A DNA stretch of 64,000 nucleotides from NCBI RefSeq assembly GCF_001482285.1, contig NZ_LOEP01000009.1, forward strand, positions 62,001 through 126,000, in the 5' to 3' direction. The notes under the pieces were generated by a model. It was not told the origin of the DNA. It saw only the letters and a program-made list of their open reading frames with translations, and did not search any database. The translations under genes were made by a program, and so were the position numbers. Below, in pieces: positions 17,905 to 23,397 of the stretch; within the stretch, counting starts at the first letter, position 1, and every line of letters starts with the position of its first letter. This DNA is from Haloferax sp. Q22. Its GTDB lineage: Archaea; Halobacteriota; Halobacteria; Halobacteriales; Haloferacaceae.

Positions 17905-18867
17905 TCAGACCGGCTCCAGTCCGTTTTCCTTCCGAAGCACGTTAAGGTAGTCGCGGAACCCGGATTCGAGGTCGTACTCCGGGTCGTAGCCGAGGTCGGC
18001 TTGCGCCTTGGTCATGTCGAGTTCCTGGGTCCACGGGAGTTCACCCTCGTCGGAGACCGTGAGGTCGGCGTCGGGGAGGAGGCGCTTCACGGTCTCCGCG
18101 GCCTCCCGAACCGTCGCCAACTCCCCGCGGACGTTGTAGACGCGTTGGGTGAGGGCGTCTTCGGGCGCGAACGTCGCCTTGCGGAACGCCTGCGCGATGT
18201 CGCGGACGTGTTGCCAGTCGATAACCTGGTCGCCGTAGTCGACGCTGAAGGGCTCGCCGAGCGCCGGTTTTTCGACGATGTTCGCGAGGAACGCGGACCC
18301 GCCGGTCTTGCGGTACGGGCCGTAGGCGACCGTCGGCCGGAGCGCGACGTGCGAGACGCCGAAGTCCTCGTAGTACACTCGGGCCTGATGCTCGTTGTAC
18401 TCCTTGGTCGCCCCGTAGAGCGTGTCGGGGTAGACGAGGTCGGACTCGGTCACGAAGTCGTCACCGTAGTTCGCGGGCGGGGCGTACACCGCCGCCGACG
18501 ACGCCCACGCGACGCGCTCGACCTGCTCGGGGAGGGCGCGCGCGGCCTCGAAGACGTTGTTCGTCCCCTGGACGTTCACGTCGAGCGCGGCCCGCGGGTT
18601 CTCCCGCGCCGTCGTCGTCAGGAGCGCCGCGAGGTGGACGATGTGCGTCGCGCCGGTCTCTCGCACCGCGCGGAACACGTCGGTCGGGTCGGTCACGTCG
18701 CCACGGCGTATCGTCACGTCGTCCGCGACGCCGAGTCTGTCGAGGATGCGCGGGTCGGTCGAGCGGTCGTAGGCGACCACGTCGTGGCCGGTCGCGACGA
18801 GGTCCGACGCGACGTACGAGCCGATGAAACCGGTCCCACCCGTAACCATCACGGTCGATGATGACAT
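17905..18867 (-). CDS. NAD(P)-dependent epimerase/dehydratase (extended SDR)
   Basis: A 320-residue extended short-chain dehydrogenase. The Rossmann motif GGTGFIGSYVAS is at about residues 10-21, the catalytic YxxxK is in TLYGATKEYN, and the C-terminal substrate domain follows. Such enzymes act on nucleotide sugars or small hydroxy acids. It is alone on the minus strand, separated from the TPP-enzyme gene by about 90 bp, and possibly on the same transcript as EthD and TPP genes upstream. A role in a sugar-acid or hydroxy-acid pathway is as likely as surface-glycan synthesis. Confidence 0.87.
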   Translation of the reverse strand: MSSSTVMVTGGTGFIGSYVASDLVATGHDVVAYDRSTDPRILDRLGVADDVTIRRGDVTDPTDVFRAVRETGATHIVHLAALLTTTARENPRAALDVNVQGTNNVFEAARALPEQVERVAWASSAAVYAPPANYGDDFVTESDLVYPDTLYGATKEYNEHQARVYYEDFGVSHVALRPTVAYGPYRKTGGSAFLANIVEKPALGEPFSVDYGDQVIDWQHVRDIAQAFRKATFAPEDALTQRVYNVRGELATVREAAETVKRLLPDADLTVSDEGELPWTQELDMTKAQADLGYDPEYDLESGFRDYLNVLRKENGLEPV

Positions 18868-18956: not shown

Positions 18957-20651
18957 CTACTCGTGAAGTCCGCCGACCGACGCGTAGAACGACGACTGGA
19001 GCGTCGCGGCCATGTCCTGACTGCGGTCGATGCGGGCGTCGATGACCGTCGGGAGGTTGTGCGTCTTCGCATCGGCGAGCGCGTCGCCGAGTTCCCCCGG
19101 CGTCTCGACACGGACGCCCGTCGCGCCGAACGCCTCAGCGACCCGCGCGAAGTCCGTGTCGTGGAACTCGACGCCCGCGATGTCGTCGGGCGCGTGCTGC
19201 ATCTGTCTGACCATCCCGAGGCTGGTGTCGTTGAGGACGACGAACGTCGGCGCGACACCGTGTTCGACCGCCGTCTCGACGCTCGTCATCGTCATGGCGA
19301 AGCCGCCGTCGCCCGCGACGCCGACGACGTGCTTGTCGGTTGCCAGCGCGGCCGACACCGCGGCGGGCGTCGCCCAACCCATGCCGCCGACGCCGCCGGA
19401 ACCGTAGTACGTCTGCACGGCGGGCACCTGCAGGTAGTTGAGCAACCAAAAGCGGTTGTTGCCGGAGTCGGCGGTGACGATGGTGTCCTCGTCGACGACG
19501 CGCTCGATTTCCTTGACGGCCCGCTGGGGGAGGATTGGCGCGGCGTCTGACTCGCATTCGGGCGCGTGGAACGACTCGCGGGCCTCCCGCGCTCGGTCCT
19601 CGGCCCAGTCGTTGCCAGTGCCGGCGGCGGCCGCGAGTTCGCGCAGCGATTCGGACGCGTCGCCGATGAGTCCCACGTCGGCGGGGTAGACCCAGCCGGC
19701 GTTCCGCGGGTCGATATCGGCGTGGATAATCGTCTGCTCGTCGGGGCGGATGAAGTCGGGGGCCTGCCAGTTGGTGTCCATCGGGTTCATGCGACAGCCG
19801 ACGACGAGGAGCGCGTCGGCCTCGCTGACGAGTCGGTTCGCGCCCTCGTGACCGAACGAGCCGATGACGCCGCCGGCGAGGCGGTGCGTCTCGGGGAACG
19901 TCGATTTCCCGAGGTAGGAGGTGACGACCGCGGCTTCGTAGGCCTCGGCGACCGCCGCCAGTTCGTCGTACGCGCCCGACGCGTGGACGCCGTTGCCCGA
20001 GACAATGACCGGTCGCTCGGCCGCGTCAAGCGCTTCGACAGCGGCGGCGACGTCGCGCGCCGTCGGCGCGGCGGTCCACGTTCTGGTCTGCGTCTCGTCG
20101 TCCCAGACCGGTGGCACGGACTCGTCGGGGAACGCCTCGGTGACGGCGTCGCCGTCGAGGACGACCGCCGTCGGACCGGGCCGGCCGGCGACGGCGTGTT
20201 TGAATGCGAGTTGCAGGCTCCGGACCGTCTCGGTCGGGGTCCGCGGGAACCAGTGTTCCTTCGTCACGGCGTCGAGAATCTTCGGGAGTTCGAGGCCGCC
20301 GTAGTCGCCGCGGGACTGCTGGTAGGGCGCGAGCGTCGAGTAGTTCCCGCGCTCGGAGGCCTCGGTGATGACGACCATCGGCGACGAGGCAAGGCGCGCT
20401 TCCATCTGTCCGATGAGGCCGAGGCTTCCTATCCACGGCCCCTGTCCGGCGAGAACACCCGGTTCACCAGTCAACCGACCGTGCATCTCGGCCATGACGC
20501 TCGCCTCGCGCTCGTCGCGGGGGCGCACGAGGTCGATGTCCGACTCGGGCAGCAGGTCGAACAGTTCGATGACGCGGCCGCCGGGGTAGCCGAAGATTCG
20601 CTCGACGCCGAGCCGTTCGAGGCTCTCGACGAGTCGTTCGCTCGTGTTCAT
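18957..20651 (-). CDS. Thiamine-pyrophosphate-dependent enzyme (acetolactate synthase-like)
   Basis: A 564-residue member of the acetolactate synthase/benzoylformate decarboxylase superfamily: N-terminal PYR domain with activating Glu47 (RDEREASVMAE), central domain, and C-terminal TPP domain with the GDGGFAM motif. The N-terminus FGYPGGRVIELFDLL is typical. The downstream residues do not clearly identify acetolactate synthase, and no regulatory subunit gene is adjacent, so a catabolic decarboxylase or ligase acting on a 2-oxo acid is preferred. Only 4 bp separate it from the EthD gene upstream, which suggests the two are made together. Confidence 0.87.
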   Translation of the reverse strand: MNTSERLVESLERLGVERIFGYPGGRVIELFDLLPESDIDLVRPRDEREASVMAEMHGRLTGEPGVLAGQGPWIGSLGLIGQMEARLASSPMVVITEASERGNYSTLAPYQQSRGDYGGLELPKILDAVTKEHWFPRTPTETVRSLQLAFKHAVAGRPGPTAVVLDGDAVTEAFPDESVPPVWDDETQTRTWTAAPTARDVAAAVEALDAAERPVIVSGNGVHASGAYDELAAVAEAYEAAVVTSYLGKSTFPETHRLAGGVIGSFGHEGANRLVSEADALLVVGCRMNPMDTNWQAPDFIRPDEQTIIHADIDPRNAGWVYPADVGLIGDASESLRELAAAAGTGNDWAEDRAREARESFHAPECESDAAPILPQRAVKEIERVVDEDTIVTADSGNNRFWLLNYLQVPAVQTYYGSGGVGGMGWATPAAVSAALATDKHVVGVAGDGGFAMTMTSVETAVEHGVAPTFVVLNDTSLGMVRQMQHAPDDIAGVEFHDTDFARVAEAFGATGVRVETPGELGDALADAKTHNLPTVIDARIDRSQDMAATLQSSFYASVGGLHE

Positions 20652-20655
20652 GGAT

Positions 20656-20976
20656 TTAGGACCTGTCGAGGTGGACCGTCTCCTCGACGTAGAGCGTCGG
20701 CCCCCGTTCCATGTCGGCGAACGACGCTGCGTCGGCGTTCACGCGCTGGCCGACCTCGGAGTCGAACGCCGCCTTCAGGGCGGCCATGTCCTCGAAGTAG
20801 AGTTCGACGATACCGTCGTACTCGGACCGCTCGGGGTCGGTCGGGACGCTCGTCGCGTACTTCACGAGCCCCGGAAGCTCCCTCGCGAGGTCCGCGTGGC
20901 TCCCCCGCCACCGCTCGACGAACTCCTCGTGCGTGTAGTCGTCGTCCCGGACGAGCATATTTACCAATTTAATCAT
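20656..20976 (-). CDS. Single-domain EthD family protein
   Basis: A 106-residue EthD-type alpha-beta barrel (MIKLVNMLVRDDDYTHEEF, then LPGLVKYATSVPTDPERSEY and VELYFEDM), clearly related to both halves of the tandem protein at 15806. It is the first gene of the EthD-TPP pair and diverges from the IclR regulator gene, whose TTCGAA-box array lies between them. Met7 at 20958 is an alternative start. The conserved pairing with a TPP enzyme suggests it handles an intermediate of the same pathway. Confidence 0.87.
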   Translation of the reverse strand: MIKLVNMLVRDDDYTHEEFVERWRGSHADLARELPGLVKYATSVPTDPERSEYDGIVELYFEDMAALKAAFDSEVGQRVNADAASFADMERGPTLYVEETVHLDRS

Positions 20977-21026
20977 GCACGTCTGCTATCCAATCGGACG
21001 CTACTTTGCTCTATCGCCGACTCGCG

Positions 21027-21085
21027 GTTCGAGCGGCCGTTAGAGGCGTTCGAACGAGTGGAACTACCGTTCGAACTGTTCGAAC
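21027..21085. promoter_or_regulatory. Phased array of GTTCGAAC boxes in the EthD-IclR divergent promoter
   Basis: GTTCGAG/A C half-sites start at 21027, 21048 and 21069, exactly 21 bp apart (two helical turns), and a fourth starts at 21078, giving the composite GTTCGAACTGTTCGAAC at 21069-21085. The array lies just upstream of a TATA-like GATTTATC (about 21088-21095) and the IclR ATG at 21120. Position and symmetry fit an operator for the IclR protein, controlling itself and the divergent EthD-TPP genes. Confidence 0.75.
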
Positions 21086-21119
21086 AAGATTTATCACGAA
21101 CGAACACCGAAGATAGGTG

Positions 21120-21887
21120 ATGACAGACGACGAACAGCGCCGACCGGTGACGACGGCCGCCACGTCGCTCGGTATCCTCGAACAGCTCAAATCAGGGGGC
21201 CCGATGGGGCCGACGGGGCTCGCCTCGGAGCTCGGGTTGGCCAAGAGCACGGTCCACCGGCATCTGAAGACGCTCGAACGCGAGGGGTTCGTCGTCCCCG
21301 GCGACGACGGCTACCGGGTCGGCCTTCGGCTCCTCGACTTCGGCATCTACGCGCGCAACCAGCACCAGCTGTACGAGGTGGCCAAGCCGAAACTGGACGA
21401 ACTCGCCGAGCAAACCGGCGAGAAAGTGTGGTGTGTCACGGAAGAACAGGGCCGTGGGTTCCACCTCTACGGCGCGGCCGGCGCGCACTCGGTGCGGACG
21501 CCGGCCCGGGAGGGGACGCGCTCGTACCTCCATCAGCTCGCCGCCGGCAAGGCCATCCTGTCGGCGTTCTCGGACGAGCGCGTCCGCCACATCGTCGACC
21601 GACACGGCCTCCCGGCGAAGACGCCGCAGACGATAACCGACTCGGACGCGCTCTTCGAGGAACTGGCGACGATTCGCGAGCGCGGGTTCGCGCTCAATCG
21701 CGAGGAAATCGTCCCGAAACTCCACGCCGTCGGCGTCGCCGTCACCGACAACGAGGGCCACCCCGTCGGGGCGATAAGCATCTCGGGACCCTCGAACCGG
21801 CTTCGAGGTGACCGACTGACCGGCGACCTCGCCGACCTCCTCCTCGGCGCGGCCAACGAGGTCGAAATCAACCTCAACTTCTCTTGA
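21120..21887 (+). CDS. IclR family transcriptional regulator
   Basis: A 255-residue regulator: winged helix-turn-helix at the N-terminus (GPTGLASELGLAKSTVHRHL) and an IclR effector domain with SVRTPAREGTRSYLHQLAAG and PVGAISISGPSNRL. IclR proteins sense aromatic or organic-acid intermediates. ATG at 21120 is chosen over the overlapping GTG at 21117 because a TATA-like box is 28 bp upstream. Divergent from EthD and TPP genes, with TTCGAA boxes in between; two similar boxes lie beyond its 3' end. The likely ligand is an intermediate of the neighbouring undefined pathway. Confidence 0.93.
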   Translation: MTDDEQRRPVTTAATSLGILEQLKSGGPMGPTGLASELGLAKSTVHRHLKTLEREGFVVPGDDGYRVGLRLLDFGIYARNQHQLYEVAKPKLDELAEQTGEKVWCVTEEQGRGFHLYGAAGAHSVRTPAREGTRSYLHQLAAGKAILSAFSDERVRHIVDRHGLPAKTPQTITDSDALFEELATIRERGFALNREEIVPKLHAVGVAVTDNEGHPVGAISISGPSNRLRGDRLTGDLADLLLGAANEVEINLNFS

Positions 21888-21931: not shown

Positions 21932-21948
21932 GTTCGAATCATTCGAAC
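21932..21948. promoter_or_regulatory. GTTCGAA-type 17-bp box beyond iclR
   Basis: GTTCGAATCATTCGAAC has the same GTTCGAA-N3-TTCGAAC architecture as the composite box in the iclR promoter. It lies 45 bp after the iclR stop codon, not upstream of any visible protein gene. Confidence 0.55.
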
Positions 21949-22032: not shown

Positions 22033-22049
22033 GTTCGAACTACTCGAAC
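22033..22049. promoter_or_regulatory. GTTCGAA-type 17-bp box beside AT-rich core
   Basis: GTTCGAACTACTCGAAC repeats the composite-box architecture with one half-site change. The adjacent sequence 22050-22080 is AT-rich and could hold a TATA box for leftward transcription starting over this box. Confidence 0.55.
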
Positions 22050-22467
22050 ATATTGTGTTATATGCTTATTATATTATTGTAGATTGACGCGATGGGAACG
22101 CGAGTAATTACAAAATTACACCTGTCACGGACTGTGGCGTGGGAGACGAACCATCCGTCTGCTGTCCGGTGGACCGGACACGTCGTCGTTGGGCCTCGTT
22201 TGTCCCGAAACCATCGTTTATCCGTAATTCGAGACTCGGTGTTCGGTTCGTGCTCGAGACGGCCTCGATAGCGACTGCTGATACGACGGCGTAACTCGAT
22301 TACTGACTCGCGTTCGAAAGGACGGAACGCTCGGTCCACCACCGCTGCGCCCCCGATTCGGCCTCGATCGCGGGCGGGTCGCTCCCGAAGACGTGTTCGC
22401 GTCGTGAAACTAGCGCTCGTGCCTGCGCTGCGAGTTCTCGCCCGACGATCGCGGCGGTTCCGAAGCT

Positions 22468-22484
22468 GTTCGAGCAGTTCGAAC
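22468..22484. promoter_or_regulatory. GTTCGAA-type 17-bp box near 3' end of the enoyl-CoA hydratase gene
   Basis: GTTCGAGCAGTTCGAAC is the fourth copy of the composite box. It lies 17 bp beyond the stop codon of the minus-strand hydratase gene, so it cannot be a conventional promoter operator for that gene. Confidence 0.5.
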
Positions 22485-22500: not shown

Positions 22501-23397
22501 CTATCGCTCGCGCTCGTGCCATTCGGGTTCGCGGTCCTCGAAGAACGCGTCGATACCCTCGTCCTTGTCTGGCGAGCCGAACAGTTGGGCGAACAGTTCC
22601 GCCTCGTACTCGATGCCCTGTTCGAGGTCCGTCCGCGACGCGGCCTTGACGGCCTTCTTGGCGAACTCCAGGGCCACGGGGCTCTTCGTCGCCATCTGCT
22701 CGGCGAGTTCGTACACCCGGTCGTCGAAGGTATCGTCGCCGTGGACCTCCTCTACGAGGCCGATGTCCGCGGCCTCCTCGGCGGAGATGAGCTCGCCCGT
22801 CAGGATGAGCCGCATGGCGTGTCCCTCGCCGACGAGACGCGCGAGTCGCTGGGTGCCGCCCCCGCCGGGCATGATGCCGAGGTTGATTTCGGGTTGGCCG
22901 AGTTTCGCCCGCTCGTGGGCGATGCGCACGTCGCAGGCCTGCATCAGTTCGCAGCCGCCGCCGAGGGCATGGCCGTTCACGCGGGCAATGACCGGCTGTC
23001 GGAGGTCGTCGACGCGCTCGTACACTCGCGGGCGCTTGCTCGCCTCGCGCTGTTCGAGCATATCGCGCTCGCGGAGCTCCGTTACGTCCGCGCCGGCGAC
23101 GAACGCCTTCGCCTCGTCGGAGCCGGTGAGGACGACGACGCGGGCGCTGCTCTCTTCGATGGCGTCGAGGACGCGCTTGAGTTCTGCCCGGAGCGTCGCG
23201 TTGAGCGCGTTCCGCGCGTCGGGGCGGTTCAGCGTCACGGTGACGACGCCTTCGACACGGTCACCGACGACGGCGTCGACCGTCTGGCACTCGGCGTCGA
23301 CCGACTCGATGGTCGGCGTTCCGCCGTCGGCTCGGGGGCCGCCCACCTCTCGGTCGTCGGTGTTCGGGCTGTCGGCGCTCGGGTCGTCACCGCTCAT
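22501..23397 (-). CDS. Enoyl-CoA hydratase/isomerase family protein (PaaF-like)
   Basis: A 298-residue crotonase-fold enzyme. The oxyanion-hole blocks are KAFVAGADVTEL and HALGGGCELMQACD; both catalytic Glu are present (GGGCELM and QPEINLGIMPGGGGTQRL), as in true hydratases. The first about 45 residues are a polar, disordered extension not needed for catalysis; a later start is possible. Its start overlaps the stop of the hydroxyacyl-CoA dehydrogenase gene by 4 bp, so successive beta-oxidation steps are translationally coupled. Likely substrates are enoyl-CoAs from aromatic or fatty acid catabolism. Confidence 0.93.
   Translation of the reverse strand: MSGDDPSADSPNTDDREVGGPRADGGTPTIESVDAECQTVDAVVGDRVEGVVTVTLNRPDARNALNATLRAELKRVLDAIEESSARVVVLTGSDEAKAFVAGADVTELRERDMLEQREASKRPRVYERVDDLRQPVIARVNGHALGGGCELMQACDVRIAHERAKLGQPEINLGIMPGGGGTQRLARLVGEGHAMRLILTGELISAEEAADIGLVEEVHGDDTFDDRVYELAEQMATKSPVALEFAKKAVKAASRTDLEQGIEYEAELFAQLFGSPDKDEGIDAFFEDREPEWHERER

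Follow-up and report, generated by a model that had tools for sequence, protein, structure and literature searches.

The iclR gene of Haloferax sp. Q22 carries conserved 17-bp palindromes on both sides, predicted to be operators of its own product, together with a separate 22-bp dyad on the 3' side. The overall reading, which we hold to be fairly likely, is that an IclR tetramer would occupy a main operator (O1) and its partner (OB), repress iclR and control the divergent operon, with auxiliary operators 3' of the gene and a dyad that would serve a second regulator. The 5' array is of the kind known from bacterial IclR proteins; the 3' operators and the dyad are less ordinary.

Gene organization of the locus

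The 64,000-nucleotide stretch of DNA analysed here (the window) encodes at positions 21120–21887 an IclR-family protein of about 250 aa, with an N-terminal HTH_IclR domain (45.5 bits, Pfam cut-off 22) and a C-terminal IclR_C domain (113.4 bits, cut-off 24). Its orthologue in H. alexandrinus is annotated as IclR, and the genome contains 14 IclR paralogues as well as other regulators. A 143-bp intergenic region (20977–21119) separates iclR from a divergent operon for EthD-family, ThDP (TPP)-dependent and epimerase proteins, and an enoyl-CoA hydratase (ECH) gene is convergent with iclR (Table 1). The TATA-like box of iclR is conserved and lies a few base pairs past O1 in the orthologues too; its position about 27 bp upstream of the ATG suggests a leaderless transcript. 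The core-promoter-like box AGCAAAG of the divergent operon is kept in Haloferax, Halegenticoccus and Salinigranum, and also upstream of a relocated TPP gene (locus L011). This highly conserved box, present also where TPP replaces EthD, is not a canonical TATA box.

Table 1. Genes and predicted regulatory sites of the iclR locus, numbered within the window
Feature	Position	Strand	Evidence or remark
NAD-dependent epimerase/dehydratase, third gene of the divergent operon	17905–18867	-	Pfam Epimerase 5.2e-44
ThDP (TPP)-dependent enzyme, acetolactate-synthase-like	18957–20651	-	Pfam TPP_enzyme N/M/C
EthD-family protein, first gene of the divergent operon	20656–20976	-	Pfam EthD 2.9e-16
Core-promoter-like box AGCAAAG, divergent operon	21004–21010	-	28–34 bp upstream of the EthD ATG
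Distal half-site GTTCGAG	21027–21033		42 bp upstream of O1; visible in the sequence
OB, degenerate partner GTTCGAACGAGTGGAAC	21048–21064		exactly 21 bp upstream of O1
O1, main operator GTTCGAACTGTTCGAAC	21069–21085		exact match to GTTCGAANNNTTCGAAC
TATA-like box TTTATC of iclR	21090–21095	+	sequence; ~27 bp upstream of the ATG
iclR, IclR-family regulator, 255 aa	21120–21887	+	Pfam IclR_C 1.1e-32, HTH_IclR 6.4e-12
D1, operator GTTCGAATCATTCGAAC	21932–21948		exact match; ~45 bp 3' of iclR
D2, operator GTTCGAACTACTCGAAC	22033–22049		one mismatch; conserved in Haloferax
Dyad ATTACAAAATTACACCTGTCAC	22107–22128		one mismatch to RTTACAN4TAN4TGTAAY
D4, degenerate operator GTTCGAAAGGACGGAAC	22312–22328		conserved in Haloferax
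D5, operator GTTCGAGCAGTTCGAAC	22468–22484		one mismatch; 16 bp 3' of the ECH gene; conserved in Haloferax
Enoyl-CoA hydratase (ECH), convergent with iclR	22501–23397	-	Pfam ECH_1 2.9e-69

Predicted tandem operators 5' of iclR

The operator consensus is the 17-bp palindrome GTTCGAANNNTTCGAAC. The sequence GTTCGAAC starts at 21048, 21069 and 21078, and at 21027 only the half-site GTTCGAGC is present. O1, built from the two right-hand copies of GTTCGAAC (21069 and 21078), is a perfect palindrome save for its central base and ends 4 bp before the TTTATC box.

The tandem array is genuine. None of 20,000 dinucleotide shuffles of the 143-bp intergenic region contained a site with 0–1 mismatches to GTTCGAANNNTTCGAAC, one being observed, and none reached the observed count of three sites at ≤2 mismatches. 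The 3.98-Mb genome has two exact matches to the consensus, at 21069 and 21932, both in this locus. Sites with ≤1 mismatch number four at the locus versus five elsewhere; the latter, all one-mismatch matches within predicted reading frames, were rejected as further strong operators.

The half-sites at 21027, 21048 and 21069, which the first-pass annotation had described as two helical turns apart, are indeed separated by two steps of exactly 21 bp. Of the three- or four-unit array proposed there, O1 and OB are dependable units; the half-site at 21027 is conserved in the closest clade only. The 17-bp palindromic pair placed near the TATA box corresponds to O1, and its supposed fourth half-site is the right half of O1, not a separate unit.

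Conservation and assignment to the IclR protein

Orthologous loci were taken from named genomes, annotated plasmids and further genomes. O1 was found 5' of iclR in 14/14 Haloferax loci, which are not independent and represent about seven independent lineages, and at ≤3 mismatches in 24/27 loci of other haloarchaea. All 14 Haloferax loci also have a partner at -21 bp from O1, mostly with GTTCGA on the left and GAAC on the right. Among 100 offsets tested in the seven Haloferax lineages, -21 was the best, with a mean of 2.6 mismatches out of 14 versus 10.6 over the other offsets; the second best, -30, is due to 9-bp overlaps in some species. Among the 53 Haloferax sites that passed a cut-off of ≤1 mismatch, the outer GTT and AAC do not vary. 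Conservation of the array upstream of orthologues, suggested earlier as a check, thus holds for the 21-bp pair within Haloferax, but outside the genus the partner is missing or lies about 30 bp away. Halegenticoccus and Salinigranum keep O1 and lack the 21-bp partner, and several loci of family f7 have the main site GTTCGAATAGCGGGAAC or a similar one with a second site 30 bp upstream. Judged from these loci, the spacing of 21 bp holds as a rule for the genus, and tandem arrangements of some form occur more widely.

The attribution of the motif to the adjacent IclR protein, already made in the first-pass annotation, is well supported by comparative evidence, since the motif tracks the iclR orthologue across genera despite changing neighbours. 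EthD is absent from the Halegenticoccus and Salinigranum loci and O1 is still there, H. mediterranei has lost TPP from the locus and retains O1, and the gene 3' of iclR, ECH in some genera, is elsewhere an unrelated convergent gene. Among the sampled Haloferax genomes, each of the eight with an iclR orthologue contains 2–4 exact 17-mers, and none was found in the three genomes without it. A family search with the motif alone led to an orthologous locus, L095 of genus g50; its IclR protein has 69% identity, and its ECH–iclR spacer contains two sites. The TPP operon is a likely target, because the L011 TPP gene, located apart from iclR, has the AGCAAAG box and a pair of operators in its upstream region. 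An exact intergenic operator in H. elongans and H. larsenii (L091:2027 and L093:1976) lies about 85 bp upstream of a gene for a dipeptide-type ABC transporter ATPase, which is a possible additional target.

With 14 IclR paralogues and other regulators encoded in the genome, the sites could in principle be recognised by a different DNA-binding protein. We consider this improbable, given that across genera the motif is consistently accompanied by the iclR orthologue, that the two stay linked as neighbours change, that Haloferax genomes without the orthologue have no exact copies and that the geometry of the sites is that of the IclR family. An origin by chance or codon bias has in its favour that GTTCGA is common in haloarchaeal coding DNA, that GTTCG is over-represented in the window (519 observed versus 353 expected), that the off-locus near matches are coding and that a site with ≤2 mismatches occurs inside 3/27 iclR bodies of other genera. 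However, the sites of the locus are intergenic, are kept in fixed positions and do not arise in shuffles; conservation already contradicts this explanation, and its probability is negligible. A tRNA-like origin, considered because GTTCGAA resembles a T-loop, was ruled out, as ARAGORN finds no tRNA.

Conserved putative operators 3' of iclR

The first-pass annotation confined the array to the 5' side and overlooked the conserved operators and the dyad 3' of iclR. The numbers of sites in the 613-bp iclR–ECH spacer were reached in 0/5,000 shuffles. Between Haloferax clades this convergent spacer cannot be aligned except at the operators and the dyad; a conserved small protein was rejected for the same reason. 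D1 is conserved in Haloferax, Salinigranum and genus g50, a 3' operator is present in 20/27 loci of other haloarchaea, and orthologues in other families keep the 3' operators and the dyad even with a different next gene. The iclR body of the other haloarchaea holds an operator in 3/27 loci and the dyad in 0/27.

In other Haloferax lineages (loci L004–L008, L065, L067 and L090), D4 is preceded by two degenerate units, each step being exactly 21 bp, which is a second occurrence of the two-turn step. This three-unit array lies about 360–560 bp 3' of iclR, and its units are mostly of the GTTC...CGNAC type, the last being GTTCGAA-N5-GGAAC. The distance between D1 and D2 is 100–101, 112–113 or 123–124 bp in Haloferax and 167–168 bp in Salinigranum and g50. 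These values share a helical phase with a best period of 11.05–11.15 bp (p 0.001–0.01, Monte Carlo, post hoc). Distances between 3' sites in other families (149, 155, 232 and 261 bp) fall outside the Haloferax phase, which weakens a looping interpretation of these sites; general phasing was rejected, as it holds in Haloferax and the two related genera only.

A 22-bp dyad associated with IclR genes and catabolic loci

The dyad is found 3' of iclR in 14/14 Haloferax loci and in 21/27 other loci, and in none of them within the iclR body. Its exact form, RTTACAN4TAN4TGTAAY, occurs 11 times in this genome versus 0 in the reversed control, and exact copies are present in 44/99 sampled genomes of the order, every listed control count being 0. 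Counting copies with up to one mismatch, the dyad is found no more than 700 bp 3' of 7/14 IclR genes here, 9/16 in a g50 genome and 9/22 in a genome of family f7. It is thus near 41–56% of IclR genes in three genera, compared with 0.04–0.09 genes expected per genome. Copies in the Q22 genome lie at C9, C31, C51, C56 and C6. Further copies have as neighbours genes for the catabolism of sugars or acids (rhamnose mutarotase, Gfo/Idh, DHDPS-type aldolase, FAA hydrolase and ThuA) and a gene for a TrmB regulator. Five Haloferax loci (L004, L007, L008, L065 and L067) have a second dyad 59–61 bp past the first.

Since the dyad is enriched and occurs both 3' of many IclR genes and at catabolic loci, it is probably the binding site of a shared catabolic regulator. 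That haloarchaeal iclR genes are modules bracketed by operators of their own products, and that the dyad marks a global regulator acting together with many IclR proteins from a 3' hub, is a more tentative proposal, to which we give somewhat less than an even chance.

Alternatively, the 3' sites could activate or repress a transcript of the convergent spacer, a small RNA or an antisense RNA, that is missing from the annotation. Two kinds of regulatory site are clustered there, the spacing from D2 to the dyad is kept at 73–77 bp in Haloferax, and in the closest clade the sequence after D2 is AT-rich. Yet no TATA box, reading frame or RNA family was seen to be conserved in the spacer (Rfam matches in the region were all far below threshold), and the sequence between the sites is unalignable between clades, which makes such a transcript unlikely. 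We give slightly less credit still to the idea that the sites are roadblocks or 3'-end elements parting two convergent transcription units. In Haloferax, Salinigranum and g50 they do follow both stop codons at short distance, and each palindrome could form a 7-bp hairpin, but the same palindrome is a predicted operator 5' of iclR. Moreover, the innermost pair of the stem is often broken and the outer half-sites are invariant, as expected for protein sites, and neither the extra D4 array nor the dyad would be explained.

Comparison with known IclR systems

IclR proteins bind as dimers or tetramers, and tandem sites 18–22 bp apart, about two helical turns, occur in 94 bacterial orthologous groups and are an established, common but not universal trait of the family (Suvorova and Gelfand 2021; PMC8222616). 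The array most likely represents an ordinary IclR-type tandem operator with new details. Like the GTT-11-AAC subgroup of group 1 in that survey, it has palindromic sites spanning 17 bp with outer GTT...AAC, and its spacing falls within the 18–22 bp between centres of group 1, being 21 bp in 14/14 Haloferax loci and not outside the genus. Group 1 sites are near gene starts and provide autoregulation and control of the adjacent operon, with which position and conservation here are consistent (PMC8222616). The inner sequence is different: the half-sites are GTTCGAA/TTCGAAC instead of GTTYCRY/RYGRAAC (PMC8222616), and relative to GKTYCRY...RYGRAMC there is a G in place of C at position 5 and an A in place of Y at position 7, with the mirror half deviating likewise. 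The survey covered bacterial genomes and searched the region from -400 to +50 of gene starts (PMC8222616), and so would miss sites 3' of a regulator gene.

The three-box operators of PcaU and PobR share GTTCG-type half-sites and the combination of a palindrome with direct-repeat half-sites (PMC8222616). However, the PcaU operator is GTTCG-N5-CGMAC, whereas here it is GTTCG-N7-CGAAC, with a complete degenerate site as the additional unit at a distance of 21 bp. In the DNA-bound structures of TtgV (2xrn/2xro), the two dimers of the tetramer sit on the same side of one operator and the DNA is bent (PMC8222616); a similar arrangement may be envisaged here, although TtgV is a bacterial efflux repressor with only remote sequence likeness to this IclR protein. 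Four characterised haloarchaeal IclR proteins, XacR, GacR, RhcR and MscR, are activators of sugar or sugar-alcohol genes (PMC11519228). They resemble the present protein as haloarchaeal IclR-type regulators of carbon catabolism. The open-access literature searched, which does not include the original papers on XacR, GacR and RhcR, contained no account of 3' operators or of the dyad, and earlier knowledge of the dyad is possible.

Proposed mechanism

By the family rule, one dimer would bind O1 and the second dimer of the same tetramer would bind OB, a weaker site that lies two turns further upstream and faces the same side of the DNA. Cooperative one-face binding had been postulated in the first-pass annotation, and by analogy the two-turn spacing matches the known rule for IclR proteins (PMC8222616). 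Because O1 abuts the BRE/TATA region of iclR, its occupancy would occlude these elements and repress the gene. The same complex could control the divergent EthD–TPP–epimerase operon, probably as an effector-dependent activator, since XacR, GacR, RhcR and MscR are activators (PMC11519228). It had also been suggested that the DNA loops or bends between the promoters of EthD and iclR, which is unsupported: O1 stands at various distances from the divergent promoter box (34, 45–46, 65, 68 and 70 bp), and these values fit one helical phase only weakly (Monte Carlo p 0.03–0.17). The 3' operators are most likely auxiliary and might raise the local concentration of the regulator or form a loop around the 0.77-kb iclR gene. 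The dyad would probably be bound by the second regulator, shared among haloarchaeal catabolic loci.

Significance

With the operator motif, the regulon of an uncharacterised haloarchaeal IclR protein can be tested directly, and the two-turn rule for tandem operators, known from bacterial members of the family, is extended to archaea. The 3' hub is unusual in that sites have long been kept between two gene ends, where operator searches seldom look. From the linked dyad, a shared regulator of carbon catabolism may be suspected in halophilic archaea, and the dyad provides exact bait sequences for capturing that protein.
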